A DNA stretch of 32,693 nucleotides from contig BCWJ01000027.1 of the NCBI GenBank assembly GCA_001592145.1, positions 1-32,693 on the forward strand, given 5' to 3'. How positions within the stretch are numbered: position 1 is the first letter of the stretch; each line of letters opens with the position of its first letter. Below the pieces are notes generated by a model. The model worked only from the letters and a program-made list of their open reading frames with translations. It did no database searches and was not told the DNA's origin. Below are positions 144 to 24,147 of the stretch, piece after piece. The DNA is from Xylanimicrobium pachnodae JCM 13526 = NBRC 107786 (lineage in GTDB: Bacteria > Actinomycetota > Actinomycetes > Actinomycetales > Cellulomonadaceae). The position numbers and the translations under genes are program-made.

Positions 144-2354
144 GTGAACGATTCCGCCCGTGACAAGGGTGAGGAGCGCGGCGACCGCCGCGAAGGGGCC
201 CGCTCTGGGGGAGGCAGCCGCGAGCCGGGAGTGGGACGCTCCGGTGGCGATCGCCGCCGGACGGAGGGCACTCCGCGATCCAGTGGACCGGCGCGGTTCG
301 GTGGCGGATCTCGTGGGCGGGGTGACGCGAGCGGATTCGGTGACCGGCGTGGAGACCGCGGTCGCGGTGACGGCTACGGGCGTGGCGAGGCGCGGGACGG
401 CCGCGACTCTCGGCCGGGTGCTCGACGGCAGGGTGACTCTGGCGGTGAGGGCCGCGTCGGCCGGGCGGGGTGGAGCGGTGAGGCACGCGGTGGCCGTGCC
501 GGGGGCCCTCGCGGCGGTGGGGCGGACCGCGGCGCCGGTGGCAGCCGAGGTGGCGGGTACCGCGAGGAGGCGGTGCGCGGTCGTGGTGGTGCCGCTGGAA
601 GCAGGTTCGAGCGGGACGGATCCGAGCGGGACGGGTACGGCGGACGTGAGGGACGTCGTCCCGGGCAGTCTCGGGACGCCGGGTTCCGGCGTGATGATCG
701 CCCGGGTGGCGAGGGTGGCGAGCGGCGCTTCGACCAGGGTCGTCGTCCGAGCGGGGGTCGACCCGGTGGGTCAGTGCGCGACGGCCGCCCGGGCGGAGAC
801 CGGCGCGAGGGCGGCTTCCGCAGGGACGATCGCTCGGGCGCCCCGAGGCAGGGCGGTTACCGCGGAGACGAGTGGAGCTCACGCGGCGGTGAGGTCCGCA
901 GGGAGGACCGCGGGCCGCGCACCGGCGGGTACCAGCGCGACGATCGCTTCGGCGGGGACCGCCGCGAGGGTCGGCCGGGAGGTTCGAGCGAGGATGGATT
1001 CCGCCGCGAGGACCGTGCCGGCGGGCAGCGCGACGCGGGGTACCGGCGTGAGGACCGGGGACCGCGCAGCGGTGGCTATCAGGGCTCGGAGCGCGCCGAC
1101 GGTGTGCGTCGCCCGGGCGGGTTCCGCCGTGATGACCGCGCGGGCGGGTTCCACCGTGATGACCGCGCTGGCGGTGCGACGGGTGCGCGATTCCCGGGGG
1201 ACGATCGCGGCCCCCGTCACGGCGGCTTCAGGCGTGACGAGCGACCAGGTGGCGACCGGCGTGATGAGGGCCGACGTGACGACGGCTACCGGGGTGCTGC
1301 GCGTTCCGGCGGTGGCCGACGTGACGACGGCTTCCGGCGGGATGATCGTGGTCCGGGAAGCCGCAGCGGCGGGTTCCGTGGCGAGCGTCCGGGCCGGGAC
1401 GAGCGCCCGAGGCGGGATGAACACCGGGCGTACGACGACCACCGCGCACAGGCGCGTGTCCCGGAGCCGGAGATCGCGGAGGGTGTGGACTTCCGTCAGC
1501 TCGCCAAGGACGCCCGGGAGCGCCTGCGCGGCCTGAGCAAGGACAACGCGGAGCGCGTCGGCGAACACTTGGTCATGGCGGGACGGCTGCTCGACGTCGA
1601 CCCCGAGCAGGCGTACGAGCACACCCAGGCCGCGGTACGCCGGGGTGGGCGGATCGACATCGTGCGCGAGGCGGCGGGCATCGCGGCCTACCGCACCGGG
1701 CGGTTCGCCGAGGCGCTGCGCGAGCTGCGCACCGTGCGCCGTCTCAACGGCTCCTCCGAGCACCTGGCGATCATGGCCGACGCCGAGCGCGGCCTGGGCC
1801 GCCCCGAACGGGCGATCGCCCTCGCGGCGTCTCCCGAGGCGGACACGCTCGACGCGTACAGCAAGGTCGAACTCGCGATCGTCGTGAGCGGGGCCAGGTC
1901 CGACCTCGGCGAGCACGACGCGGCGCTCGTCGCGCTCGACAAGCTGCCGACCCTGAAGGGTGACCTCCGGCTCCGGGTGCTGCAGGCGCGGGCCGCGGCC
2001 CTCGAAGCGGCCGGACGCACGCAGGAGGCCGAGGAACTGCTCGCCGGCATCGACCCGACGGACCTCGAGCGCGCGGCCGGCAACGCTGAGCCCGAGGACG
2101 AGGTGGTGGTCTACGACGTCTACGACGACGAGGCCGACGACGAGGCCGACGACGAGGCCGACGACGAGGCCGACGACGAGGTGTCGGGCACCGAGGACGC
2201 GGACGATGACGAGCCGGGCGTGGGCGGCTCGGAGGACGACGCTGAGGACGAGTTGGTCGTGGGTGATGAGGGATCCGGGGCAGCCGACGGGTCGGGAGAT
2301 GCTGGGCCGGTCGGCGACGCGGAGGCAGCGGTCGACGAGGGGCAGAGGCCGTGA
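144..2354 (+). CDS. Arg/Gly-rich, TPR-containing protein with acidic tail
   Basis: I do not recognise a characterised homologue. Three parts are visible. Residues 1 to about 440 are low complexity, dominated by R, G and D in recurring RRDDR, RDDRAGG and GGFRRD units that resemble RGG/RG RNA-binding tails. Residues about 447-634 form a helical tetratricopeptide-like domain (ERLRGLSKDNAERVGEHL, then A-G-R-x-x-E-A-E units), likely a protein-protein platform. From about 660 the tail is strongly acidic with a tandem DDEA repeat. I chose GTG 144 because GAGAGG lies 6 nt upstream; the in-frame ATG at 111 has its purine tract touching the start codon, so it is less likely. The stop overlaps the next gene's start, implying coupling. 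An RNA- or ribosome-associated role is inference from composition only. Confidence 0.75.
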   Translation: MNDSARDKGEERGDRREGARSGGGSREPGVGRSGGDRRRTEGTPRSSGPARFGGGSRGRGDASGFGDRRGDRGRGDGYGRGEARDGRDSRPGARRQGDSGGEGRVGRAGWSGEARGGRAGGPRGGGADRGAGGSRGGGYREEAVRGRGGAAGSRFERDGSERDGYGGREGRRPGQSRDAGFRRDDRPGGEGGERRFDQGRRPSGGRPGGSVRDGRPGGDRREGGFRRDDRSGAPRQGGYRGDEWSSRGGEVRREDRGPRTGGYQRDDRFGGDRREGRPGGSSEDGFRREDRAGGQRDAGYRREDRGPRSGGYQGSERADGVRRPGGFRRDDRAGGFHRDDRAGGATGARFPGDDRGPRHGGFRRDERPGGDRRDEGRRDDGYRGAARSGGGRRDDGFRRDDRGPGSRSGGFRGERPGRDERPRRDEHRAYDDHRAQARVPEPEIAEGVDFRQLAKDARERLRGLSKDNAERVGEHLVMAGRLLDVDPEQAYEHTQAAVRRGGRIDIVREAAGIAAYRTGRFAEALRELRTVRRLNGSSEHLAIMADAERGLGRPERAIALAASPEADTLDAYSKVELAIVVSGARSDLGEHDAALVALDKLPTLKGDLRLRVLQARAAALEAAGRTQEAEELLAGIDPTDLERAAGNAEPEDEVVVYDVYDDEADDEADDEADDEADDEVSGTEDADDDEPGVGGSEDDAEDELVVGDEGSGAADGSGDAGPVGDAEAAVDEGQRP
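2124..2180 (+). repeat. 12-bp in-frame tandem repeat (DDEA units)
   Basis: Four full copies and one partial copy of GACGACGAGGCC run head to tail inside the acidic tail of the TPR protein, encoding repeated Asp-Asp-Glu-Ala. The copies are identical, so the tract is probably recent or prone to slippage; copy changes would keep the frame because the unit is a multiple of three. Confidence 0.9.
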
Positions 2355-3367
2355 GCGCGCTCGGGCTCCTGGGCAGTGAGCTGCCGCTGGCCGAGGTGTA
2401 CGACCTCGCGCTCGTCGACCTGGACGGCGTGGCGTATCGAGGACACCTGCCCATCGAGCATGCGGCGGACAGCCTGACGGAGGCGCGGACGAGGGGCATG
2501 CGTCTGTTGTTCGTCACGAACAACGCGTCGCGTGAGCCCGAGGATGTTGCAGGGCAGTTGTCCGGGCTCGACATCCCGACGTCCGCGGACGAGGTGATGA
2601 CGGCGGCTCAGGCCTGCGCGGCGTTGCTGCGCACGCGTCTCGACCCGGGCGCCCGGGTGCTGGTCGTGGGTGGCCAGGGCCTGGTGACGGCTGTCACCGC
2701 GGCGGGGTTCGAGGTGGTGACCTCGGCGGAGGACGCGCCGGTGGCCGTCGCGCAGGGGTTCGCACCGGACCTGGCCTGGCCGGACCTCGCGGAGGCAGCG
2801 TACGCCGTGTCCGCGGGGGCGTGGCATGTGGCGAGCAACCGGGACCTGTCGTTGCCGACGGCGCGCGGTTACGCGCCGGGCAACGGGGCGCTCGTCGCGG
2901 CGGTGGTCGCGGCGACCGGGGTTGAGCCGTCGAGCGCGGGAAAGCCGGAACCCACGATGTACCGGCTTGCCGTCGCCCGCGTCGGCGCGCAGCGTCCGCT
3001 CGTGGTGGGTGACCGCCTCGACACGGATCTGCAGGGTGCTCGGGCGGGCGACTATCCCGGGCTGCACGTGCTCACCGGGGTGTCATCGGCGCGTGATGCC
3101 GTGCTGGCAGCACCCGGACTGCGGCCCCACTTCCTCGGCGGTGACCTGCGCGCCCTGCTCGAGCCGCATCCCGAGCCGGTTCGGGGTGCCGAGGGTTGGT
3201 GGCAGTGTGGCGGTCGGGCCGCCCGGCTCGAGAGCGGCAGGCTCGTGCTGGACGGCCAGGGCCCGCAGGGCATCGACGTCATCCGTGCGGCATGCGCGGC
3301 CGCGTGGGCTGCCGCTGACGAGGGAGCGACGGTCGACGCGGACAGCGTCCCCGAGCTGTCGGCCTGA
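2351..3367 (+). CDS. HAD-superfamily IIA hydrolase (NagD/phosphoglycolate phosphatase-like)
   Basis: A phosphatase of the haloacid dehalogenase superfamily, subfamily IIA. Visible motifs in order: motif I DLDGVAY, with the nucleophile Asp and general acid Asp, near residue 22; motif II FVTNNAS near 55, typical of NagD-like enzymes; a C2-type cap; the lysine motif GKPEPTMY near 197; and motif III VVGDRLDTDLQGA near 217. An extra segment of about 60 residues follows the HAD core and may be an appended domain. The GTG start overlaps the upstream TGA, so it is probably translated with the TPR gene. The natural substrate cannot be told from sequence; damaged or excess phosphometabolites such as 2-phosphoglycolate are typical of the family. 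Confidence 0.9.
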   Translation: MSALGLLGSELPLAEVYDLALVDLDGVAYRGHLPIEHAADSLTEARTRGMRLLFVTNNASREPEDVAGQLSGLDIPTSADEVMTAAQACAALLRTRLDPGARVLVVGGQGLVTAVTAAGFEVVTSAEDAPVAVAQGFAPDLAWPDLAEAAYAVSAGAWHVASNRDLSLPTARGYAPGNGALVAAVVAATGVEPSSAGKPEPTMYRLAVARVGAQRPLVVGDRLDTDLQGARAGDYPGLHVLTGVSSARDAVLAAPGLRPHFLGGDLRALLEPHPEPVRGAEGWWQCGGRAARLESGRLVLDGQGPQGIDVIRAACAAAWAAADEGATVDADSVPELSA

Positions 3368-3548
3368 CCGCCCCTCGCAACGGGTCGAGGACCACGGCAC
3401 GAAGGCCTTCGGACGGACGTGCGGGTGCACGGTGGTCGAACGGGCAGGGGAGTCCAGAACCGCGGGGTGTGCCGGGACCGGGCGCCCTGCCATGCGTCGG
3501 TCGATGCCCGCCCTGTGGGTGATCATCCGGAACGTCGGCGGTAACCGG

Positions 3549-3554
3549 TAGCGT
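3549..3554 (+). promoter_or_regulatory. Possible -10 box for the small gene/tlyA/nadK transcript
   Basis: TAGCGT fits the actinobacterial TANNNT -10 pattern and lies in the 292-bp gap after the HAD gene, about 105 nt upstream of the next start. No clear -35 is seen. The twelve bases starting here (TAGCGTGGTCGC) recur exactly at the proposed ctaA promoter on the minus strand. Confidence 0.35.
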
Positions 3555-3573
3555 GGTCGCGGGCACCTGCGCA

Positions 3574-3640
3574 GGCGCCCTGCGCGCGCGAGCACGTCCC
3601 GGAGCGCGCCGTCAGACTGCCCAGCGGCGCGCAGGGCGCC
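3574..3640 (+). repeat. 14-bp perfect inverted repeat in the tlyA leader
   Basis: GGCGCCCTGCGCGC at 3574-3587 is the exact reverse complement of 3627-3640, with a 39-nt spacer. In RNA it would form a very stable stem ending 10 nt before the GGAGG ribosome site of the next gene. There is no T-tract after it, so a classical intrinsic terminator is not obvious; a leader structure or an attenuator is possible. The rest of 3368-3573 shows nothing I can name. Confidence 0.7.
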
Positions 3641-3659
3641 GCCCCGCTACGGAGGAACG

Positions 3660-3896
3660 ATGACCCAGGACGCGAACGTGCGCTCAGGCGGTCACGCGCA
3701 GGACGGTGCCGGCGATCCGGACGAGACCCGCCGCCCCCGTGCCGAGTCCGCCAGCCAGGGGCTGAAGGAGGCGCTCGCGCGTCTGGACGAGGTGCCTGTC
3801 GCCGAGCATCTGGCACGGTTCGAGGAGGTGCACGAGCGGCTCCAGGAGCGGCTCGCGGGTCGCACCGACGGTGGCTCTGGGGGCGGTGAGGCGTGA
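3660..3896 (+). CDS. Small charged hypothetical protein upstream of TlyA
   Basis: A 78-residue protein with no recognised domain. The first 30 residues look disordered (G, D, R, E rich). The middle, about residues 34-67, is a predicted amphipathic helix rich in E, A, L and R (GLKEALARLDEVPVAEHL...RLQERLAG). The end is Gly-rich. Support that it is real: a strong GGAGG 5-8 nt before ATG, high GC at third positions, and a GTGA overlap with tlyA, so it probably couples translation of tlyA. No membrane segment or cysteines. Function unknown; a role linked to ribosomal RNA modification would be guesswork from position alone. Confidence 0.75.
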   Translation: MTQDANVRSGGHAQDGAGDPDETRRPRAESASQGLKEALARLDEVPVAEHLARFEEVHERLQERLAGRTDGGSGGGEA

Positions 3897-4816
3897 CCCG
3901 GACCCAGCAACGAGTCGACGTGGAGCTGGTACGTCGCGGCCTGGCACGGTCTCGCGCGCACGCCGCGGAACTGGTGCGGGCAGGACGCGTCCTGGTGCAC
4001 GGTCACGTGATCACCAAGCCGTCCGCGCCGACGGTGCCGGACGACGCCGTCGACGTGCTCGCCGATCCCGATGATCCCGCCTATGCCTCGCGTGCGGCGC
4101 TCAAGCTCTCCGGTGCGCTCGATGCCCTGGATCAGGCGGGCGTGCTGGCTCGGTCGGGGGAGCGGGCGCTCCTCGCCGTGGACGGGGCGTGGTGCCTGGA
4201 CCTGGGCGCGTCGACGGGTGGCTTCACCGACGTGCTCCTGCGGCGCGGGGCGGTGCACGTGGTCGCGCTCGACGTCGGGCACGACCAGCTCGTCCCGCGA
4301 CTGCGCGCGGACGTGCGCGTCACGGTGATCGAGGGCTACAACGTGCGCGATCTTGCTCGGTCGGACCTCGCTCGGTCACCCGACCTGGTGGTGGGCGACC
4401 TGTCGTTCATCTCGCTGACCCTGGTGGTCCCCGCGCTCGCCGGGATCCTCGACCCGGGCGCGCCGGCGGTGCTCCTGGTCAAGCCGCAGTTCGAGGTGGG
4501 CCGGGAGCGGCTGGGCTCGGGCGGCGTCGTCCGGGACCCTGCCCTGCACGTCGCGGCGGTGCTCGACGTCGTCGCCGCAGGGGCGCACGTGGGCCTCAAG
4601 ACCCGGGCGATCGTGCCGAGCCCTCTGCCCGGCCCGAGCGGCAACCGCGAGTACTTCGTCGTGCTCGAGCGGGGCGACGCTGCTGACGGCACGGCGGCGC
4701 GCATCAGCGCCGGGCCCTCGGTGCACGCCGCCGTGGAGTGGGTCCCCGACTCGCGCGGCACGGAGCGCCCGCCCGTGTTCAGCACACCGTCTTCTCGCAC
4801 CGGAGGTGCACTGTGA
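3893..4816 (+). CDS. tlyA: TlyA, 16S/23S rRNA 2'-O-methyltransferase
   Basis: TlyA-family enzyme, which in mycobacteria methylates ribose 2'-OH groups in 16S and 23S rRNA using S-adenosylmethionine; loss gives capreomycin resistance there. The N-terminal S4 RNA-binding domain is clear at residues 1-60 (RVDVELVRRGLARSRAHAAE, then AGRVLVHGHVITKPS). The SAM-binding fold follows: motif I CLDLGASTGGFTDVLL near residue 102, VVALDVGHDQL, then VVGDLSFISL and LLVKPQFEVGRE, matching the KDKE-type FtsJ catalytic layout. The last 30 residues are variable. The GTG start overlaps the upstream TGA. The stop lies inside a duplicated 24-bp segment shared with the nadK start, so the C-terminal residues RTGGAL are encoded by the repeat. 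Confidence 0.95.
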   Translation: MTRTQQRVDVELVRRGLARSRAHAAELVRAGRVLVHGHVITKPSAPTVPDDAVDVLADPDDPAYASRAALKLSGALDALDQAGVLARSGERALLAVDGAWCLDLGASTGGFTDVLLRRGAVHVVALDVGHDQLVPRLRADVRVTVIEGYNVRDLARSDLARSPDLVVGDLSFISLTLVVPALAGILDPGAPAVLLVKPQFEVGRERLGSGGVVRDPALHVAAVLDVVAAGAHVGLKTRAIVPSPLPGPSGNREYFVVLERGDAADGTAARISAGPSVHAAVEWVPDSRGTERPPVFSTPSSRTGGAL

Positions 4817-4843
4817 CTGCTCGCACCGGAGGTGCACTGTGAC
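4794..4843 (+). repeat. 26-bp tandem duplication of tlyA stop/nadK start, with a 9-codon mini-cistron
   Basis: The 24 bases at 4794-4817 recur exactly at 4820-4843, a 26-bp period. Each copy holds CGGAGGTGCACTGTGAC: a GGAGG site, 6 nt, and GTG overlapping TGA. In copy 1 the TGA ends tlyA. In copy 2 the GTG (4839) starts nadK. The GTG of copy 1 (4813) opens a 9-codon frame, MTARTGGAL, ending at 4842 and overlapping the nadK start by 4 nt. Because 26 is not a multiple of three, the duplication replaced a direct tlyA-nadK overlap by a two-step coupled relay. Confidence 0.9.
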
Positions 4844-5807
4844 CCGCAGAGTTCTTGTCGTGACCCACGGCGGCCGGGCCGAGGCCATCGCCTCGCGCGA
4901 CGAGGCGGTCCGGGAGCTGGAGGCGTCGGGGTTCGCCGTCGCGCTGCACGACGACGACCTGGCCGAGACGTTCGGTGACCAGGCGGCGACCGCACGGCTG
5001 CGGGAAGGTGTCGCCGGGTCCGAAGCCGTCGTGGTGCTGGGCGGAGACGGGACGATCCTGCGTGCCGCTGAGCTCACCCACGGCACCGGGGTGCCGATCC
5101 TCGGCGTGAACCTGGGCCACGTGGGGTTCCTGGCAGAGTCCGAGCGGGAGGACCTGCGCGACGCGATGCGGCGGCTGGCTGCGCACGACTACGTGGTCGA
5201 GGAGAGGGCGGTGGTCTCCGTCGAGGTGCGTCGGCCCGGCGAGGACGCGCCCGTGGCGGGCTGGGCCCTCAACGAAGCGACCATCGAGAAGGCGCAACGC
5301 CACCGTGTCGTGGAGGTCGGCATCGAGGTGGACGGGCGGGCCCTGTCGAGCTTCGGGTGCGACGGCGTCGTCGTCGCGACCCCCACCGGGTCTACGGCGC
5401 ACGCATTCTCCGCGGGTGGCCCGGTGATGTGGCCCGACGTCGACGGCGTGCTGCTGGTGCCGCTGTCGGCGCACGCGCTGTTCGCGCGGCCGCTCGTCAT
5501 CGGACCGCGGTCGTCGTACCGGATCACGGTGCTCCAGCGCTCGCCGGTCTCCGCGGTGCTGACCTGCGACGGGTTGCGCAGCATCGACCTGCCGCAGGGC
5601 TCCACGGTGGAGGTGCGGCGCGGCACCCAGCCCCTGCGCTTCGCCCGACTGTCCACGGCGCCCTTCACCGACCGCCTCGTCTCGAAGTTCTCCCTGCCGG
5701 TGGTCGGGTGGCGAGAGGCGGCCGACGACGCCGCGGCCGCCCGTGCGCGCGCCCTTGCGCTGATGGACGCCGTGACGGAGACGGCCGACGACGGCGGGGT
5801 GGAGTGA
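4839..5807 (+). CDS. nadK: NAD kinase
   Basis: ATP- or polyphosphate-dependent NAD kinase (PpnK), which makes NADP from NAD in the cytoplasm. The diagnostic GGDG motif is at residues 68-71 within VVLGGDGTILRAAEL. NLGHVGFLAE follows, then the conserved NE motif in WALNEATIEK, and the NAD-binding loop DGVVVATPTGSTAHAFSAGG. Length (322) is normal for actinobacteria. I chose GTG 4839, with GGAGG 6 nt upstream; an in-frame ATG 33 nt earlier lies inside tlyA and has no ribosome site. The stop overlaps the recN start. The neighbourhood tlyA-nadK-recN is conserved in actinobacteria. Confidence 0.96.
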   Translation: MTRRVLVVTHGGRAEAIASRDEAVRELEASGFAVALHDDDLAETFGDQAATARLREGVAGSEAVVVLGGDGTILRAAELTHGTGVPILGVNLGHVGFLAESEREDLRDAMRRLAAHDYVVEERAVVSVEVRRPGEDAPVAGWALNEATIEKAQRHRVVEVGIEVDGRALSSFGCDGVVVATPTGSTAHAFSAGGPVMWPDVDGVLLVPLSAHALFARPLVIGPRSSYRITVLQRSPVSAVLTCDGLRSIDLPQGSTVEVRRGTQPLRFARLSTAPFTDRLVSKFSLPVVGWREAADDAAAARARALALMDAVTETADDGGVE

Positions 5808-15028: not shown

Positions 15029-15060
15029 CCGGGCTCCGGGGCGGGGGCGGGTGTGCCGGA

Positions 15061-15066
15061 TACAGT
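15061..15066 (+). promoter_or_regulatory. Candidate -10 box of a leaderless promoter for the AfsR-like gene
   Basis: TACAGT fits TANNNT and is followed by six bases and then the GTG start, placing the expected transcription start at the start codon. No ribosome site is seen upstream of this GTG, which supports leaderless expression. The -35 region is GC-only and not recognisable. Confidence 0.55.
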
Positions 15067-15072
15067 GACCCG

Positions 15073-18000
15073 GTGAGTCCTCACCCCGTCGCGTCGCGCG
15101 TCGGTGTCCTGGGCCCCGTCGTCGTCATCGGGCCGGACGGGGAGTCGCGACCCCCGCGCGGCGAGCGGGCAGCCGCGCTGCTCGTGGTGCTCGCGCTGGC
15201 CGCAGGGCGAGCCGTCCCCGTCACCTCGCTGGTCGACGAGCTGTGGACCGACGCGGCGCCCGCCGACCCGCGCGCCGCACTCCAGTCGCTCGTCTCTCGA
15301 CTGCGCGCCACCGCGGGTGCGGCGGTCGTGGTCGCGCGTCCCGGTGGCTACGTGCTCGATGCTGCCACCGACCTGGGGGACGCCGCGGCCGCGCTCCGGG
15401 CCGCCCGGGAGTCCCTCGCCCGGGGCGGCGGGGCGCAGGCCGCGCGGATCGCGCAGGAGGCCCTCGCGCTGTGGCGCGGGGCGCCCGGCGAGGGGCTGGG
15501 TCCCGACCACGCGGACCTCGCACGGTCGCTGGCCGCTGCCTCGGATCGCCTGACGGACGAACTGGCCGCCGTCCGCCGCCAGGCGGCCGTCACGCTGGCC
15601 GACCACGAGACCGTGATCGCGCTGGCAGCGCCCGCGTTCGCCGCCGACGCCACCGACGAGGTGGCCGCCCGCGACCTGATGTTCGCGCTGACGGCGCTCG
15701 GCCGGGGGGACGAGGCCGCCCGCGTGTACTCGCGCCTTCGCCACGCGCTGGTCACCGAGCTGGGTGCGGACCCGTCCCCGCAGGTCACGGCACTCGCGCA
15801 GGAGGCCACCGCGGCGGTGCCCTCAGGGGAGGACCCGGGACCCGGCCCGCGCGAGGCAGGGCACCACGGTGTGACCCAGCCCCGGGCGGTGGCGCGCGCC
15901 CGGAGCACCGCGAGCCCGCTGCTCGGACGCGACGCGGACCTCGCCGCGCTGCTGTCCGCCGTCGAGCAGCACCGGCTCGTGACGATCCTCGGCCCGGGCG
16001 GGCTCGGCAAGACGCGTCTCGCGCTCGAGGTGGCGGGACAGGCGCCCCACCGTGCGGCCGGACGACTGGAGGTGGCCGTCGCCGAGCTCGCGGGGGTCCG
16101 CACCGACGACGACGTGCTGCTGGCGCTCGCGGACGCCCTCGGCATCTCGCTGCTGGCCTCGGCCCGGCTGCAGGACCGGCTGCTCGCCGGGGACGTGCGT
16201 GAGCAACTGGTGGAGCGAGTGAGCGCTGCGCCCATGCTCCTGGTGCTCGACAACTGCGAGCACGTGGCGGCGGGTGCTGCCGCCTGGGCCGGCGAGCTGT
16301 TGACCGCCGCCCCCGGACTGCGGGTGCTCGCGACGTCGCGCGCACCGCTCCAGCTTGCGGCCGAGCAGGTGTACGCGCTCGCGCCGCTCGACGCGGCGGG
16401 CGCGGGAGCGGATCTGTTCCTCCGCCGCGCGCGGGCCGCCCGGCCGGGGGCTCAGCTGCCCCGGGAGGTCGTGATCCGGCTCGTGGAACGGCTCGACGGC
16501 CTCCCGCTCGCGATCGAGCTCGCTGCCGCCCGCGTGCGGACTCTGAGCGTGGCCGAGATCGAGGCGCACCTGATCGAGGCGCAGCTGGGGGAGCGGTTCG
16601 CGCTGCTGCGTGGCGGCGACCGGTCGGCACCCGAACGGCACCGCACCCTGGAAGCCGTCATCGCGTGGAGCTGGGACCTGCTCGACCCCGCACAGCAGGC
16701 GTTGTGGCGCCGCGTGGCCCTGCTGCCCGACGGGTTCTCGGCGCAGGCGGCCGCCGTCGTCGGGGGTCTGGACCGCGGCGGGAACGCCCTGGCCGTCCTG
16801 GACGACCTGGACGCGCTCGTGACGCAGTCGATCGTGGTGACGAGCGACGGCCCCGAGGGGGCGCGGTACGCCATGCTGGAGACCGTCCGTGAGCTGGGGC
16901 TGGTACGTCTCGAGCAGGCCGGTGAGGCGGACGCGGCCCTGGACGCGCTGTGGGCGTGGGCGAACGACCTCGCCGCGCGGCGGACCGGTGACCTGCTGGG
17001 GCCGTCACAGGTCGCGGCACTGACCGAGCTCGGTGTGGAGCACGAGAACCTCCTGTACGCGCTGCGGGCGGCGGCCCGGCGCGTGCGCGGGGAGCCGCGC
17101 CCCGGGACGTCGTCGGTGGTGCGCCCCGACGTCGTGGTCCGGCTGTTCGTGGCCCTGGTGGGCCGATGGGTGCTCCAGGGCGTCGAGGAACGTGCCGCGC
17201 AGCTTGCCGGGGCGGTGGCCGAGGCGTTGCTCTGGTGGCGGGTGCCGCGCGATCTGAGAGGTGTGGCGAGCCTGGCGCTCGTGTTCGCCGCTCTGGCGCG
17301 GGGCGCCGAAGGGGGTGTGGGTGCGGTCCGGCTGCTGGCACGGCTGCGGCGCCTGCTGCAAGCCGACGATCAGGACCCGCAGGGCCCCACGACGGATCGC
17401 CGCATCCGGCTCGTGGCCCTCGGATGCCTGACGGCGATGGGCCAGGCCACGCAGGACGCGATGCGGGTGGTAGCCGCACTGCGTGACGACGCCGACCCGA
17501 TGCTGTCCGCGCTGGCCTACGTGACCCTGGCGCAGGACGCGGAGAACTCCGGACGGCTTACCGAGTCAGTCACCCTCGCGGAGCAGGCGTACGAGGCGGC
17601 ACTGCTCATCGGGGACGTCGCGTTTCCCTCGTTCACCGCGATGATGGCGGCCACCGGGTGCAGCGAGGCGGGAGACCACGCCTCCGCGCGCCGATGGTCG
17701 ACGATCGCCCGTGCCGGTCTGGCGCAGCTCGGGTCGCCCGAGGGTGCCCGTGACATCGGACGCCAGCTCGACTGGGTCGACCTCGCCGCGGCGCTCGGCA
17801 CGGGCGACCTGGAGGCCGCGGAGCGGCTGTGCGACGCGCTCGAACGGAGCGACGACGGCGACCGGCCCGCGGACGTCCCCGACCCGGCGGGGGCGGTCGC
17901 TGCGGGGCAACGCGGTTCCTCCGACCATCTGGGCCGGCAGGCCGCCACCGGCACGGGGCGGGCCGAGCTCGCCTGGGCGCGCGGTGACCTGGACGGCGCG

Positions 18001-18498
18001 CTCGGCCTCTACCGGCACCTGCGCGAGCGGGTGGCGCACGCGACCGGGGCGGCCGCGCCGTGGGCCATCCTCGCGGCGGCGGCACTCGCGGTGCGTCTCG
18101 CGCAACGGGAGCTCCGCGACGAGGCGCTGGACTGCGCGCGCGACGCGGTGCGCCGGACCACGGAGTTCATGACGGTGTGGGCCGCGCGCGGCATCGACCG
18201 TCCGGTGCTCGGGGCCGTGTGCGTCGGCGCGGGCGCGGCGCTCGCCCTGGGTGCGCCGTCAGGCGTCGACACCGAGCGCGGTATCGAGCTGGTTCAGCTC
18301 GGGGTCTCGCTCGGCGCACGGCAGGATCTCGCGGCGCTGAGCCACGGGCCGGTGCTCGCGAGCCTCGAGGAGCGGTGCGGTGCGGCAGTGGTCGCGTCCG
18401 CGGCCGCGAGGGTCGCTGTCGCGGACGTCGACGCCCGGACCTCGCGGGCCCTGGAGCTGCTCGGCGACCTGGAGTTGCTCGGCGACCTGGACGCGTGA
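15073..18498 (+). CDS. AfsR/SARP-family transcriptional regulator (wHTH-BTAD-NB-ARC)
   Basis: A large signal-integrating activator. Domains in order: OmpR-type winged helix, about residues 8-95 (VGVLGPVVVIGPDGE, then LVDELWTDAAPADPRAALQ, LVSRLR and ARPGGYVLDA); bacterial transcriptional activation domain, about 100-250 (VARDLMFALTALGRGDEAARVYSRL with LGADPSPQV); NB-ARC/STAND ATPase from about 275, with Walker A GPGGLGKTRLALE near 307, Walker B MLLVLDNCEHV near 388 and GLPLAIELAAARVRTLS near 476; then a long Ala-rich helical C-terminus, probably TPR-like. The last residues repeat LELLGD twice from an 18-bp duplication (18451-18486). SARP proteins bind tandem repeats spaced 11 bp. It converges on a DrrAB-like exporter whose promoter has exactly such an array, so that operon is its best candidate target. 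Confidence 0.92.
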   Translation: MSPHPVASRVGVLGPVVVIGPDGESRPPRGERAAALLVVLALAAGRAVPVTSLVDELWTDAAPADPRAALQSLVSRLRATAGAAVVVARPGGYVLDAATDLGDAAAALRAARESLARGGGAQAARIAQEALALWRGAPGEGLGPDHADLARSLAAASDRLTDELAAVRRQAAVTLADHETVIALAAPAFAADATDEVAARDLMFALTALGRGDEAARVYSRLRHALVTELGADPSPQVTALAQEATAAVPSGEDPGPGPREAGHHGVTQPRAVARARSTASPLLGRDADLAALLSAVEQHRLVTILGPGGLGKTRLALEVAGQAPHRAAGRLEVAVAELAGVRTDDDVLLALADALGISLLASARLQDRLLAGDVREQLVERVSAAPMLLVLDNCEHVAAGAAAWAGELLTAAPGLRVLATSRAPLQLAAEQVYALAPLDAAGAGADLFLRRARAARPGAQLPREVVIRLVERLDGLPLAIELAAARVRTLSVAEIEAHLIEAQLGERFALLRGGDRSAPERHRTLEAVIAWSWDLLDPAQQALWRRVALLPDGFSAQAAAVVGGLDRGGNALAVLDDLDALVTQSIVVTSDGPEGARYAMLETVRELGLVRLEQAGEADAALDALWAWANDLAARRTGDLLGPSQVAALTELGVEHENLLYALRAAARRVRGEPRPGTSSVVRPDVVVRLFVALVGRWVLQGVEERAAQLAGAVAEALLWWRVPRDLRGVASLALVFAALARGAEGGVGAVRLLARLRRLLQADDQDPQGPTTDRRIRLVALGCLTAMGQATQDAMRVVAALRDDADPMLSALAYVTLAQDAENSGRLTESVTLAEQAYEAALLIGDVAFPSFTAMMAATGCSEAGDHASARRWSTIARAGLAQLGSPEGARDIGRQLDWVDLAAALGTGDLEAAERLCDALERSDDGDRPADVPDPAGAVAAGQRGSSDHLGRQAATGTGRAELAWARGDLDGALGLYRHLRERVAHATGAAAPWAILAAAALAVRLAQRELRDEALDCARDAVRRTTEFMTVWAARGIDRPVLGAVCVGAGAALALGAPSGVDTERGIELVQLGVSLGARQDLAALSHGPVLASLEERCGAAVVASAAARVAVADVDARTSRALELLGDLELLGDLDA

Positions 18499-18545: not shown

Positions 18546-18590
18546 ACCGTGCGTGACAGTGCCGTGCGTGACAGGACCGTGCGTCACGCC
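18546..18590. repeat. Three 15-bp tandem repeats at the end of the permease gene
   Basis: Units ACCGTGCGTGACAGT, GCCGTGCGTGACAGG and ACCGTGCGTCACGCC follow head to tail. The first two contain TGACAG, the hexamer that is repeated in the exporter promoter. The third overlaps the permease stop codon. Confidence 0.8.
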
Positions 18591-19393
18591 TTGCGCATGT
18601 AGCCGCGCACCGCCAGCGGGGCGAACACCGCCACGACCGCCGCGGCACCCAGCAGGGCGAGGGCGACGTCGGACCCACCACCCGTGCCGGCGGCCAGAGA
18701 GCGCACGGCGGTGACGACGTGCGAGACGGGGTTGACGTTCACGAAGGCGCGCAGCCAGGTGGGCAGCGTGTCCGCGGGGACGAAGGCGTTCGACAGGAAC
18801 GTGAGCGGGAACAGGATGAGGAACGAGATGCCCTGGACCGAGGAGGCGCTGCGCGCGATGACGCCGAAGAACGCGAAGATCCAGCTCATCGACCAGGCGC
18901 ACACGATGACGAGCAGCGCGCCCGCGATCGTCCCGGTCGCGGAGGCGGGCCGCCAGCCCATGATCAGGCCCATGACGATGGTCAGCGTCGTGGCGATGAC
19001 GTAGCGCAGCACGTCGGCCATCAGTGCGCCGGCGAGGGGTGCGATGCGGGCGATGGGCAGCGAGCGGAAGCGGTCGAACACGCCCTTGTCCATGTCCTCG
19101 CGGAGCTGGACGCCGGTGACCGTCGAGGTGGTGATGACGGTCTGCACCAGGATGCCCGGGATGAGGGTCGGCAGGTAGGACGTCACGTCGCCCGCGATGG
19201 CCCCGCCGAACAGGTAGGCGAACATCAGCGTGAACAGGATCGGCTGGACGGTGACGTCGATGAGCTGTTCCGGGGTGCGGCGCACCTTGATCAGCCCGCG
19301 CCGCGCCATGGTGAGCGACTGCTGTGCGGTGGTGAGGAGGCTCGTGACCGGGTGGGCGGTCGGCAGGCCGGGGGCGGTCAGGGTGGCGGTCAT
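18584..19393 (-). CDS. ABC-2 type exporter permease (DrrB-like)
   Basis: Membrane subunit of a DrrAB-type drug or lipid exporter, 269 residues with about six membrane helices. The DrrB family features are clear: [27 protein letters not shown] at the first helix, [28 protein letters not shown] as the cytoplasmic coupling loop, and [22 protein letters not shown] with [17 protein letters not shown] near the end. The ATG overlaps the stop of the upstream ATPase gene (ATGA). It ends 85 bp from the convergent regulator. The substrate is unknown. Confidence 0.92.
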
Positions 19394-20388
19394 GCGAGCA
19401 CCTTCTCGGGGCTGGTGGGGGTGGCGGACGCGGAGGCTTCGGCCGCGGTGGCCGTGTGGCCGGTCAGGGTGAGGAACACCTCGTCCAGCGACGGCTTGGC
19501 AAGGGCCAGCTCGAGCACCTCGACGCCCGCCTGGTGTAGCCGCACGAGCACGTCGGTGACCGGGCCGGACCGCTCGACCGGTACCGTCAGCCGGACTCCC
19601 TGGGTCAGGGGCGTGGACGCGGCCTCGTGGCCCAGGGCGTCGAGCAGGACGCCGCGGGCGCGATCGGCGTCCCCGCGCGCCACGGTGACCTGCAGGGACT
19701 GGTGGCCCACCGATGCCTTGAGCTCGTCCGCGGTGCCCTCCGCCACCACGGTGCCCCGGTCGATGACGGCGATGCGGTCGGCGAGCTGGTCGGCCTCGTC
19801 GAGGTACTGGGAGGTGAGCAGCACGGTGGAGCCGTCGGCGACCAGACGGCGCACCGTGTCCCACATCTGGTTGCGGGTGCGCGGGTCCAGGCCGGTGGTG
19901 GGCTCGTCGAGGAAGATGAGCGGCGGCTGCGAGATGAGGCTGGCCGCCAGGTCGAGGCGGCGTCGCATGCCACCCGAGAAGGACTTGAGGGGTTTGCGCG
20001 CCGCCTCGGTGAGCGCGAACTCGTCGAGCAGCGCGGCGGCCTTCCGCCGTGCGGCCCGGGGCGAGAGCCCGAGCAGGCGGCCGAAGACGACGAGGTTCTC
20101 GGTGGCCGAGAGCGTCTCGTCGACCGAGGCGTACTGGCCCGTCACGCCGATCAGGGAGCGGACCGTCTGCGGGTCGCGGACGACGTCGTGCCCGAAGATG
20201 CGGGCGGACCCGGCGTCGGGGCGCAGCAGCGTGGCCAGCATGCGGATGGTGGTGGTCTTGCCGGCCCCGTTCGGGCCGAGGACGCCGTAGACGCTGCCGG
20301 CTTCCACCGTGAGGTCCACGCCGTCGACGGCGCGGTTGCTGCCGAAGACCTTCACGAGGCCCTGGGCCTCGATGGCTGGTGTGTTCAT
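19390..20388 (-). CDS. ABC exporter ATP-binding protein (DrrA-like)
   Basis: Cytoplasmic ATPase of the DrrAB-like exporter, 332 residues. Walker [21 protein letters not shown] near residue 38, Q-loop [18 protein letters not shown], signature [17 protein letters not shown], Walker [22 protein letters not shown] and switch region [20 protein letters not shown] are all intact; the DrrA family has this Q in place of the usual switch His. A C-terminal extension of about 90 residues carries the DrrA domain ([18 protein letters not shown]). ATG 20388 is preceded by CGGAG inside a hairpin. Expression is probably controlled by the repeat array at 20412-20481. Confidence 0.94.
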
Positions 20389-20406
20389 GGCTCCGAGCGT
20401 GGAGCC
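20389..20406 (-). promoter_or_regulatory. Hairpin that hides the drrA-like ribosome site
   Basis: Read on the minus strand, GGCTCC, a 6-nt loop (acgctc), then GGAGCC and directly ATG. The Shine-Dalgarno GGAG is the 3' arm of a perfect 6-bp stem, so it would be masked unless the stem opens. Confidence 0.6.
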
Positions 20407-20411
20407 GGGCG

Positions 20412-20481
20412 CTGTCAGGGCCCTGTCATACGCCGCGCCGCACTGTCACGGCGCTGTCACACCGCTGTCATCGGGTTGTCA
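20412..20481 (-). promoter_or_regulatory. 11-bp-phased TGACAG direct-repeat array (candidate SARP operator)
   Basis: On the minus strand TGACAA/G occurs six times, at plus-strand intervals starting 20412, 20423, 20443, 20454, 20465 and 20476. Spacings are 11, 20, 11, 11 and 11 bp. The 20-bp gap contains a possible -10, TATGAC (20425-20430), about 11 bp after the repeat at 20443. The distal copy overlaps the ctaA stop codon. Tandem repeats at 11-bp spacing upstream of a -10 are the hallmark of SARP-activated promoters. Confidence 0.7.
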
Positions 20482-21535: not shown

Positions 21536-22327
21536 CTACTGCCAGCGGAACAGTCGTGACGCGCCCCATGCGAGCAGCGCCGTCCAGCCCGCCAGGACGA
21601 GCACCGCGAGCGGTGGCACCCCGCTGCCGGACAGCGCCCCGCGCATCGCCTCGCCCAGCGCCCCGGACGGGAGCCAGGCGGCCACCTGGGCCAGACCGCC
21701 CGGCAGGCGGTCGGGGGGCACGAGCACCCCGCCGCCGACGATGAGCAGCACGAGGAGCAGGTTCGACAGGGCGAGCACGCCCTCGGCCCGCAGCACGCCC
21801 GCCAGGAGCAGCGCGAGGGCCGTGAACGCGGCGGTGCCGAGCAGCGCGACCCCGATCGCGGCGGGGATGCCCGCCAGGTGCGGCCGCCAGCCGAGCGCGA
21901 CGGCGACGGCGGTGAGCACGACCGCCTGCACCACCTCGACCCCCAGCACTCCCAGCACCTTGCCCGCGAGCAGGCCGCCGCGTCCGAGCGGCGTCGTGGC
22001 CATGAGGCGCAGCACCCCGTTGCGGCGGTCGAACGCGGTGGCGATCGCCTGGGAGGTGAACGCCGTCGACATGATGGCGACGGCGATGACGCCGGGGGTG
22101 GTGAAGTCGATACGGGTCGCCCCCGCCGTGTCGAGCTCGACGATGGTGGCGCGCGCGACGCCCACCAGCAGGAACAGCGGCAGCGCGATCGTCACGAGGA
22201 GCTGCTCGCCGTTGCGCAGGATCGTGCGGGACTCGAACGCGGCCTGCGCGGCGATGCGTCGCAGCGCGGGGGCCGCTGCCTGCGCGGGTGCGGCCGGTGC
22301 GGGTGTCGTCGTCGCTGGTCCGGTCAT
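21536..22327 (-). CDS. ABC-2 type transporter permease
   Basis: Six-helix permease of 263 residues. After an Ala/Pro-rich N-terminus it shows RRIAAQAAFESRTILRNGEQLLVTIALPLFLLVGV, then VAIMSTAFTSQAIATAFDRRNGVLRLMATTPLGRGGLLAGKV, the typical coupling loop (R-x-x-G-x-L-x-x-L-x-x-T-P), and a C-terminal group of helices with LVPPDRLPGGLAQVAAWLPSGALGEAMRGAL. The ATG overlaps the stop of its ATPase gene. It is an ABC-2 exporter of the type next to suf operons in mycobacteria (Rv1457c). Substrate unknown; a role in heme or lipid export is only suggested by ctaA nearby. Confidence 0.9.
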   Translation of the reverse strand: MTGPATTTPAPAAPAQAAAPALRRIAAQAAFESRTILRNGEQLLVTIALPLFLLVGVARATIVELDTAGATRIDFTTPGVIAVAIMSTAFTSQAIATAFDRRNGVLRLMATTPLGRGGLLAGKVLGVLGVEVVQAVVLTAVAVALGWRPHLAGIPAAIGVALLGTAAFTALALLLAGVLRAEGVLALSNLLLVLLIVGGGVLVPPDRLPGGLAQVAAWLPSGALGEAMRGALSGSGVPPLAVLVLAGWTALLAWGASRLFRWQ

Positions 22328-23208
22328 CGCAGGTTCCTCCCGGTCAGGTCGAGGAACACGTCCTCCAGGGTGCGCCTGCCCACGGTCACGCTCGCCCCCG
22401 ACGCGCCGTGCGCCGTCAGCCAGGCGGTCAGCGCGGCGGGGTCGAAGTGCGGCGGGGCCGTGAAGCGGGCGACAGTCTCCGCGCCGCCGTGCGCGCCGGT
22501 GGCGAGCAGCTCCGCGACCGTGCCGGAGGCGATCACCGTGCCGTGGTCGACGACGTGGACGACGTCGGCCAGCGACTCGGCCTCGTCCATGAGGTGCGTG
22601 GTCAGGACGACGGCGACGCCGTCGGACCGCAGCTCGCGGACCAGGTCCCACACCGCGTGCCGCGACTGCGGGTCCATGCCCGCGCTGGGCTCGTCCAGGA
22701 AGACCAGCTCGGGGCGTCCGACGACGGCGCAGGCGAGCGAGAGGCGCTGGCGTTGCCCGCCGGACAGGCGGCGCACCGTGGTGCGGGCGAACGAGTCGAG
22801 CCCCAACCGGTCCACGAGCTCGGCGACGGGGCGGGGGCTCGCGTACATGGCGGAGACATGCCGCAGCACCTCGAGGGCGCGGGCACCGGAGGGAAGGCCG
22901 CCGTCCTGGAGCATGACGCCGACCCGGGGGCGCAGCAGTGCGGCGTCGGCGCGCGGGTCGAGTCCCAGCACGCGCACGGTTCCGCCGTCGGGGACGCGCA
23001 GGCCCTCGCAGATCTCGATGGTGGTGGTCTTGCCCGCCCCGTTGGGACCGAGGACTGCCGTGACCGCGCCGCGCTGCGCCTCCAGGCAGAGGCCGTCGAC
23101 GACGGTGCGGCCGCCGTAGCGTTTGACGAGCCCGTGGAGGGCGAGGGCGGGGGCGTCCGGCTGGGCGGCGGGCGCGAGTGCGCCGGTGGCCGCGGCGGAG
23201 GTGCTCAC
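22324..23208 (-). CDS. ABC transporter ATP-binding protein
   Basis: ATPase partner of the permease above, 294 residues. Walker [21 protein letters not shown] near residue 57, Q-loop VGVMLQDGGLPSGARALEVLRH, signature RLSGGQRQRLSLACAVVGRP, Walker B LVFLDEPSAGMDPQSRHAVWD and switch VVLTTHLMDEAESLADVVHVV are intact. The C-terminus (RRTLEDVFLDLTGRNLR) matches CcmA-like exporters. GTG 23208 has no ribosome site, and a TAGCAT box seven bases upstream suggests a leaderless message. It diverges from sufR across 156 bp. Confidence 0.93.
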   Translation of the reverse strand: MSTSAAATGALAPAAQPDAPALALHGLVKRYGGRTVVDGLCLEAQRGAVTAVLGPNGAGKTTTIEICEGLRVPDGGTVRVLGLDPRADAALLRPRVGVMLQDGGLPSGARALEVLRHVSAMYASPRPVAELVDRLGLDSFARTTVRRLSGGQRQRLSLACAVVGRPELVFLDEPSAGMDPQSRHAVWDLVRELRSDGVAVVLTTHLMDEAESLADVVHVVDHGTVIASGTVAELLATGAHGGAETVARFTAPPHFDPAALTAWLTAHGASGASVTVGRRTLEDVFLDLTGRNLR

Positions 23209-23215
23209 GCCGGGG

Positions 23216-23221
23216 ATGCTA
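23216..23221 (-). promoter_or_regulatory. Candidate -10 box of a leaderless promoter for the ABC ATPase gene
   Basis: TAGCAT on the minus strand, seven bases, then GTG 23208. Same geometry as the ctaA and AfsR-like starts. Confidence 0.5.
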
Positions 23222-23266
23222 CGCGGCGAACCAGGGCGAATGTCGCCGTGGTGAGGTAACCCTTGC

Positions 23267-23296
23267 TTGACATCCTCGATTACGCAACGAAGATGT
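23267..23296 (+). promoter_or_regulatory. sufR promoter box and candidate SufR operator
   Basis: TTGACA at 23267-23272 is a consensus -35. Overlapping it is an inverted repeat, ACATCCTCG (23270-23278), 9-nt spacer, CGAAGATGT (23288-23296), matching at 8 of 9 positions. The -10 is uncertain: TATATC at 23301 is the best-looking box but lies 28 bp away. The local sequence is clearly AT-richer than its surroundings. A repressor on this dyad would block the -35, as expected for SufR autoregulation. Confidence 0.6.
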
Positions 23297-23364
23297 TCCC
23301 TATATCGCGGACCGTGACAGCGGGCCGCGCACCCAGCCACGACGCGACCAGGAGGGGCACCGCT

Positions 23365-24147
23365 ATGACCATGCGCGACCCCCGGCCAGGCGCCGCCGGA
23401 CCCGCGACGGTCGGCACGGCAACCGTGGGCGGGGTGGACGACTCCGCCGAGTCCACGCGCCGCCGGGTGGTCGACCTCATCGCCAGCGACGGACCCGTCA
23501 GCGCGGGCGAGCTCGCCCAGCGGCTCGGGCTGACGTCGGCGGGCGTGCGCCGGCATCTGGCCCAGCTCGAGGAGGACGGCACCATCGTGGTGCACGCCGT
23601 CCCCGGGGTGACGCCCGTGCGCCGGGGACGCCCCGCCCGCTCCTACGTGCTCGCGCCCGGCAGCCAGCCCGGGCTGCACGACGCCTACCGCGAGGTGGCC
23701 GTGCAGGCCCTGCGCCAGCTCCGTGCCGCCGGCGGCGAGAGTGCCGTCCTCGACTTCGCCACCCAGCAGATCGACGGCGTCCTGGAACGGCTCGCACCGC
23801 ACGTCACGGCGGAGGAGCCCGCGCAGCGCGCGGCACAGCTCGCGGCGGCGCTCTCGGAGGAGGGGTACGCGGCCTCCGTGCGCCCCGTGTCCGCGGCCAC
23901 GTTGGTGCCCATCGCGCAGCTGTGCCAGGGTCAGTGCCCGGTCCAGTACGTCGCGGCGGAGTTCCCCGAGCTGTGCGAGGCCGAGGCCCGCGCGTTCTCC
24001 GAGGTGCTCGGCACCCACGTCCAACGCCTGGCCACCATCGCGGGCGGCGCGCACGCCTGCGTGACGAACGTCCCACTGGGCTCGGCCTCGATCGCGAGCA
24101 CGGCCCAGACCACCAGCACGGCGCAGATCCCGGAAGGAACACGATGA
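23365..24147 (+). CDS. sufR: Fe-S-sensing repressor SufR
   Basis: Transcriptional repressor of the suf operon that loses DNA binding when its Fe-S cluster is damaged. The N-terminal winged helix is clear, about residues 30-90 ([51 protein letters not shown]). C-terminal cysteines C187, C191, C204 and C232 give a C191-x12-C204-x27-C232 pattern like the three ligands I recall for mycobacterial SufR (Rv1460), with His218 where cyanobacterial SufR has its third cysteine; C187 is extra. I chose ATG 23365, with GGAGGGG 7 nt upstream; an in-frame ATG about 100 nt earlier falls within the promoter. The stop overlaps the sufB start (ATGA). Confidence 0.93.

Follow-up and report, generated by a model that had tools for sequence, protein, structure and literature searches.

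Among the closest described systems is the afsS promoter of Streptomyces coelicolor, where AfsR, a large SARP with a nucleotide-binding domain, binds two 11-bp repeats at -40 to -19; the -10 element reads CACTGT, and the 3' repeat lies 8 bp from it (PMC10936776). The N-terminal domains of AfsR form a side-by-side dimer on the repeats that overlaps the -35 region and engages region 4 of the sigma factor, and the NOD and TPR domains inhibit the SARP part, an inhibition that is removed by ATP binding (PMC10936776). AfsR is described as a global, kinase-regulated activator (PMC10936776). Further large SARPs, such as PimR and other SARP-LAL proteins, bind three direct repeats with 4-nt spacers; unlike the SARP considered below, they are cluster-situated, regulate polyene synthesis and have a C-terminal half of the LAL type (PMC10972967).

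SARP control of drrAB is itself already known. DnrI, listed as an activator of daunorubicin synthesis, is reported to bind drrAB in Streptomyces peucetius (Prija 2017). In Amycolatopsis sulphurea, an AfsR/SARP gene lies beside drrAB, and single point mutations there were reported in 9/9 selected chelocardin-resistant mutants (PMC7559539), published support for a role in drug resistance of SARPs encoded next to drrAB. Overexpression of drrAB alone gave no resistance in that organism (PMC7559539), and further SARP targets may therefore exist there.

Here, we analyzed a 32,693-nucleotide stretch of the Xylanimicrobium pachnodae genome (contig BCWJ01000027.1; referred to below, at its full length, as the window), in which an array of direct repeats lies upstream of a drrAB-like operon convergent with a large SARP gene (Table 1). 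The locus shares with AfsR/afsS a large SARP bearing a nucleotide-binding domain and 11-bp direct repeats placed just upstream of a weak -10 element; it differs in the box (TGACAG), in its six copies and in a start that is probably leaderless, and, in contrast to the global role of AfsR, an exporter operon is the only evident target of its SARP. As with DnrI, drrAB is the target of a SARP, in the window a predicted one; unlike DnrI, the regulator carries a STAND ATPase and is accompanied by no biosynthetic cluster among the neighboring frames scanned, which include recN, steA, a murJ-like gene, the CTP synthase gene, ctaA and several suf genes. The A. sulphurea locus presents the same kind of gene pair. 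The initial annotation had taken the module to be undescribed in this lineage. This holds in part, given that SARP control of drrAB is in print for DnrI and A. sulphurea, while no description of this promoter or module was recognized among the open-access papers searched.

Table 1. Promoter elements and genes of the drrAB-SARP locus, in positions of the window.
Feature	Position	Strand	Basis or remark
SARP box 1 (proximal), TGACAG	20412..20417	minus	read from sequence; kept in congeners
SARP box 2, TGACAG	20423..20428	minus	read from sequence; kept in congeners
SARP box 3, TGACAG	20443..20448	minus	20 bp from box 2, about two helical turns
SARP box 4, TGACAG	20454..20459	minus	read from sequence
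SARP box 5, TGACAG	20465..20470	minus	read from sequence
SARP box 6, TGACAA	20476..20481	minus	TGA doubles as the stop codon of ctaA
Degenerate seventh copy, CGACAC, inside ctaA	20487..20492	minus	11-bp phase kept; may be coincidental
Predicted -10, CACGCT	20396..20401	minus	10 nt past the proximal box, 7 nt before the drrA ATG
TATGAC (-10 of the initial annotation)	20425..20430	minus	not conserved; probably not a promoter element
Large SARP, 1141 aa: winged-helix DNA-binding domain, BTAD, STAND (AAA/NB-ARC-like) ATPase, long C-terminal region	15073..18498	plus	Pfam, PDB relatives, alignment
drrA-like ABC ATPase	19390..20388	minus	DrrA subfamily: TIGR01188 drrA, 365.4 bits, cut-off 312.45
drrB-like ABC-2 permease	18584..19393	minus	Pfam ABC2_membrane, E 1.2e-29

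We set the drrB start at the ATG of an ATGA whose TGA ends drrA, as confirmed in the sequence letters. The permease, clearly of the ABC-2 type, scored below the DrrB cut-offs (67.3 versus 223.05 for TIGR01247; 83.2 versus 146.9 for TIGR00025). Upstream of drrA lies ctaA, a COX15-CtaA gene, and the SARP gene is convergent to drrB, 85 bp beyond its end. A second DrrA paralogue, 66-68% identical, is found in the same genome (L139; G000:C2:129154-130095), with no box pair upstream and no SARP in the 8 kb fetched, 4.1 kb of which lie downstream. The window also contains a second ABC-2 exporter pair of ATPase and permease (21536-24147), situated between ctaA and a divergent winged-helix regulator near the suf genes, which from its position we take to be SufR-like.

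The convergent regulator has the domain order of the AfsR/SARP family, an N-terminal OmpR-type winged helix followed by a BTAD, the latter matched by Pfam at E 1.6e-17 (64.7 bits; cut-off 22.1). Trans_reg_C stays below its cut-off in this protein (22.2 versus 26.2) and is matched in 25 of 28 SARP members at E<=0.01. Its relatives in the PDB include AfsR (8hvr; E 1.2e-16, residues 7-247 aligned) and EmbR (2fez; E 2e-13). As expected of a large SARP, it carries a central NB-ARC/STAND ATPase with intact Walker motifs; the Walker A residues (between G307 and T314) and a DNCE motif (D393-E396) are invariant in the 28-member alignment. AAA_22 was matched in 28/28 members and NB-ARC in 27/28 (E<=0.01), the sole exception being the window SARP, which matches AAA_22 and, below cut-off, nSTAND1. 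TPR_19 was matched in 16/28 members; in the window protein no TPR family was matched at E 0.01. The AfsR equivalog model NCBIfam NF053617 gave 69.7 bits against a cut-off of 1430, and PADLOC returned no match for the SARP. Autoregulation through the same boxes was considered and rejected, as a box pair was found upstream of 0/75 scanned SARP genes, whose start positions were estimated. At 15060-15075 of the window, where a SARP box pair is likewise lacking, TACAGT is followed after 6 nt by the GTG start of the SARP gene, which may itself be leaderless too.

The repeats upstream of the DrrAB-like exporter are real, with coordinates and spacings as initially annotated (11, 20, 11, 11 and 11 bp from the drrA side); of the six TGACAG copies counted there, five are exact and the sixth reads TGACAA. 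All six share one orientation on the minus strand and lie mainly within the 90 bp that separate the ctaA stop from the drrA ATG. The array is unlikely to be a chance product: the window has four TGACA copies in 11-bp phase, while among 300 dinucleotide shuffles two copies occurred in 13 and three in none. The hexamer TGACAG alone is not over-represented in the window (10 matches versus 12.8 expected). When a three-copy pattern with up to two mismatches was run against the 4.0-Mb genome, the drrA array was the sole matching place, with three overlapping matches, all on the minus strand; a reversed-pattern control gave one match per strand. The short gap that separates the convergent SARP and drrB genes holds two plus-strand TGACAG copies at a distance of 15 bp (18554-18574); they are outside the 11-bp phase and probably unrelated to the array.

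Conservation was assessed in 11 genomes of the genus, the window's own included. A drrA orthologue is present in six of them, namely the window's own genome, G001, G002, G003 and G010 (the latter four with 83-84% identity) and G006 (76% and 88% over pieces on two contigs). TGACAG-N5-TGACAG lies upstream of drrA in all six and is absent from the five genomes without an orthologue, four of which are <90% complete. The distance from the end of the proximal box to the ATG is 22-23 bp in L085-L088, the four congener promoters that are intact, whereas flanks and number of upstream boxes differ among them; the split promoter of G006 has three boxes at 11 bp with the same distance to the ATG. A SARP sequence was found in 5/5 congeners with drrA, in G006 on a contig other than that of the promoter. 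The most distal box in L086 and L087 is spaced at 10 bp rather than 11 bp, similar to the 10-bp secondary operator of PimR (PMC10972967). The SARP of L117 (G001:C1:657000-669500; near 2313-5587) is matched in two frames, corresponding to window residues 4-92 and 138-1130, which is a frame break or sequencing error; the drrA promoter of the same congener, L087, keeps four boxes.

Exact TGACAG pairs in these genomes lie at drrA in 13/16 rows (5 matches with the reversed control), and none of the three remaining rows looks like another target. Two of them fall at the boundary between one gene, presumably nif3-like, and the following frame; the third lies on a contig with proteins that look foreign to the genus. 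The congener contig L138 (G006:C4:88500-93500) encodes proteins that look low-GC, unlike its host, and is perhaps assembly contamination.

Beyond the genus, we compared 186 drrA-like loci: the best 80 of a longer contig list, 60 of 124 family rows (mostly top-ranked), 40 among the class matches listed, the four congener loci, the own-genome paralogue and the window. A six-frame profile search detected a SARP in 101/185 loci, convergent in each, and none in 84; from the latter, L027 and L038 were added as SARP-bearing by tblastn. In the family set, a TGACAG pair is present in 35/37 loci with a SARP and in 1/27 without, and the two SARP loci lacking it (L154 and L172) have TGTCAG- or GTCAGC-type repeats instead. 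In the best-80 contig set, a TGACAG or TGCAAG pair occurs in 38/41 SARP loci and in 0/34 Bacilli loci; L007, L008 and L077 were left out as undecidable because a SARP C-terminal match, weak in L077, sits at the locus edge, and before their removal the actinobacteria of this set without a SARP looked array-positive (3/4). The SARP-less controls of the family are mostly a more distant paralogue (L173-L199, mostly 56-63% identity); the cleanest single controls are L169 and L020 (69% identical each), which have neither SARP nor phased repeats. Neither of the comparative outcomes that the initial annotation had set as refuting was seen: orthologous promoters keep the repeats, and loci lacking the SARP rarely have them. 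The link between array and SARP, marked as conjecture in the initial annotation, is well supported by this promoter comparison. The same regulator, array and pump recur together across many actinobacteria.

L145 (G426:C56:9700-18700) has boxes upstream of drrA and no SARP in the 9 kb fetched; its scaffold contains 300 masked or unknown bases, and either a recent SARP loss or an assembly gap would fit. Nine loci of one genus (L220-L228; family f25, genus g31) encode DrrA homologues of 56-61% identity, again with no SARP in the 9 kb fetched. No clear SARP-type array was seen upstream of these, yet L227 and L228 (scores of 16 and 14) pass the threshold of the motif-free test described below. Masked bases affect an upstream stretch in L031 and some positions in L041 and L165.

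These data bear on the identity of the DNA-binding protein. Direct repeats in 11-bp steps are also recognized by response regulators of the OmpR type, and the array read on its plus strand, CTGTCAY at 11-bp intervals, resembles the PhoB box of Escherichia coli. Both points would favor a PHO-box-like site of an OmpR-family two-component regulator (PhoP/RegX3/PhoB type), with the SARP next door coincidental, although the orientation of the array towards drrA is presumably the reverse of that of a PHO box. Moreover, AfsR and PhoP have overlapping binding sequences at shared Streptomyces promoters (PMC10936776, PMC10972967), again in keeping with such a site. A global phosphate regulator should, however, have many sites, whereas the three-copy array occurs once in the genome and exact pairs in the genus concentrate at drrA. 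Given that the array is unique and its presence follows the local SARP, we reject a response-regulator site as highly improbable.

To compare promoters with no motif named, we scored the best hexamer triple per promoter at a given lag. For family loci with a SARP, the mean score reaches 15.2 at lag 11, against 9.9-10.9 at lags 7-10 and 12-15; SARP-less loci of the family average 11.1 at lag 11. Some loci of the best-80 set recur with identical sequence among the family or class rows. For counts, 8 of the 186 promoters, identical over 70 nt to another, were removed (leaving 178), as were 10 loci that end too early for the SARP to be decided. A score of at least 14 was reached by 74/96 loci with SARP, 5/40 actinobacterial loci without (L145, L184, L186, L227 and L228) and 6/32 Bacilli loci, and in 2-4% of shuffled promoters; at 16 or above, 50 loci with SARP, one actinobacterial locus without and no Bacilli locus remain. 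Fisher's test on 74/96 versus 5/40 gives about 3e-12, a value that overstates the significance because the loci are related, the true weight being smaller. Many of the 22/96 SARP loci below threshold have arrays that are degenerate by eye, and some, for example L217, L232 and L233, fit unclearly.

The -10 element was initially assigned to TATGAC in the 20-bp gap. This sequence is present in the window, but none of the four congener loci L085-L088 has it within 200 bp upstream of drrA, and we reject it in favor of a conserved candidate, CACGCT, downstream of the proximal pair. Proximal TGACAG or TGCAAG boxes were readable in 67/94 SARP promoters. When these were aligned, nAnnnT started exactly 10 nt after the proximal box in 47/67 and at 21 nt in another 16/67, all 16 of which have a degenerate box at the intervening 11-bp step (TGCGAG in 14, also TGCAAC and CGACAG). 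Together, spacers of 10 or 21 account for 63/67 promoters, with L004, L016, L017 and L149 as exceptions; nAnnnT occurs in at most 3 promoters at any other spacer from 0 to 20, and in 7, all among the 63, at spacer 24. In the TGCAAG class, the A and the T of nAnnnT are each present in 97% of 31 promoters. A motif-free version of this analysis was positive for 62/96 loci with SARP versus 2/40 actinobacterial loci without. It is uninformative for Bacilli, whose AT-rich DNA matches at most spacers: 23/32 loci were positive at spacer 10, and similar numbers (20-23) at spacers 9, 11 and 12.

AfsR contacts 8 bp per box; with a box of that length, the 10 nt that follow the hexamer become 8 bp. The arrangement thus agrees with SARP target promoters, which have 11- or 22-bp direct repeats and a 3' repeat about 8 bp from the -10, even though the window has an inner gap of 20 rather than 22 bp; this match with AfsR in repeat and -10 spacing points to a promoter of the SARP-activated type. 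A distance of 5-7 nt between the -10 and the assigned start codon is found in 31/62 motif-free-positive loci; this count is lowered by script-assigned drr starts that are incorrect in places (e.g. L207, L219, L234 and L236). The distances suggest that many of these promoters are leaderless, and the drrA mRNA in the window probably is as well, given the position of the predicted -10 so close to the ATG.

Two further alternatives can be weighed against this layout. The SARP might bind the array but repress drrAB, with the boxes acting as an operator and a signal relieving repression; the window boxes do flank TATGAC on both sides, and Atr32, a medium-sized SARP, is reported as a negative regulator (PMC10972967). 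This we hold to be very unlikely, as the -10 elements are weak and, in the conserved layout, every box lies upstream of an unobstructed -10, with roughly the spacing described for promoters that SARPs activate. Alternatively, the repeats could be non-regulatory, produced by local repeat expansion or by the overlap of ctaA and drrA sequences, as might be argued from an array that partly overlaps the ctaA end and varies in copy number between species. But box and phase persist while the flanks between boxes differ, the array is kept in L085, which has no ctaA match in its 4-kb locus, lag 11 alone stands out, and the spacing to the -10 is fixed, leaving a non-regulatory origin extremely improbable.

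The box itself varies between clades. TGACAG is used in most of the family (Promicromonospora, Myceligenerans, Cellulosimicrobium, Cellulomonas and Oerskovia), TGCAAG in most loci of Rhodococcus, Nocardia and kin, CGCAAG-like repeats in L037 (Microbacteriaceae) and L055 (Compostimonas), and TGTCAG-like or GTGAAACC repeats in other families. In the AfsR structure, Arg92 contacts a base at a T and Thr88 contacts two positions on (PMC10936776). Arg92 (AfsR numbering) is kept in 91/91 readable rows. The Thr88 position holds Ser (23), Asn (6) or Thr (5) in TGACAG rows, Thr in 29/29 readable TGCAAG rows, Val in 9/9 TGAAAC rows and Ala (3) or Thr (2) in TGTCAG rows; 13 rows without a box class have Thr (7) or Val (6). 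All four class consensuses start with TG and diverge from the third position, as expected from the AfsR geometry if the T of the box is the Arg92 contact; the classes are author-defined, and single boxes starting with CG or GG occur. That box sequence and SARP recognition helix change roughly in step from clade to clade is suggestive only. The correlation at residue 88 is loose and confounded by clade, and a single-residue code as a rule was rejected, Thr88 occurring with three box classes.

Based on these results, we suggest that the array is very probably the activator site of the drrAB promoter, bound by the convergent large SARP; as judged from sequence comparison, an AfsR-like SARP-STAND regulator activating one local DrrAB exporter is the best reading. 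Two or more SARP N-terminal domains would bind side by side on the 11-bp direct repeats, the proximal one 10 bp upstream of the weak -10 CACGCT, and would replace the missing -35 contact and recruit RNA polymerase. Transcription would start at or next to the drrA ATG to give a leaderless mRNA, and the extra upstream boxes may raise affinity or cooperativity. The SARP is probably held in an inactive state by its STAND ATPase and C-terminal part until it senses a signal, for which a toxic substrate of the pump is a plausible candidate. By analogy, we infer that the domains act as in AfsR, including a side-by-side dimer that overlaps the -35 region.

A broader interpretation, to which we give slightly less than even credence, is that of a deeply conserved, stand-alone actinobacterial module with one regulator and one target, in which a SARP fused to an AfsR-like STAND ATPase senses a toxic small molecule and, acting at a leaderless promoter, switches a dedicated DrrAB pump; recognition helix and box would co-diverge between clades. 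If so, SARPs would be general xenobiotic sensors rather than activators of antibiotic clusters only, and STAND proteins would act as one-component drug sensors. The large SARP has a single evident target, its promoter layout is fixed, and box and helix occur in numerous natural variants; the system therefore makes it testable what the STAND and C-terminal parts of large SARPs sense and how SARP DNA specificity changes, and it points to a widespread, regulated drug-exporter locus in actinobacteria.
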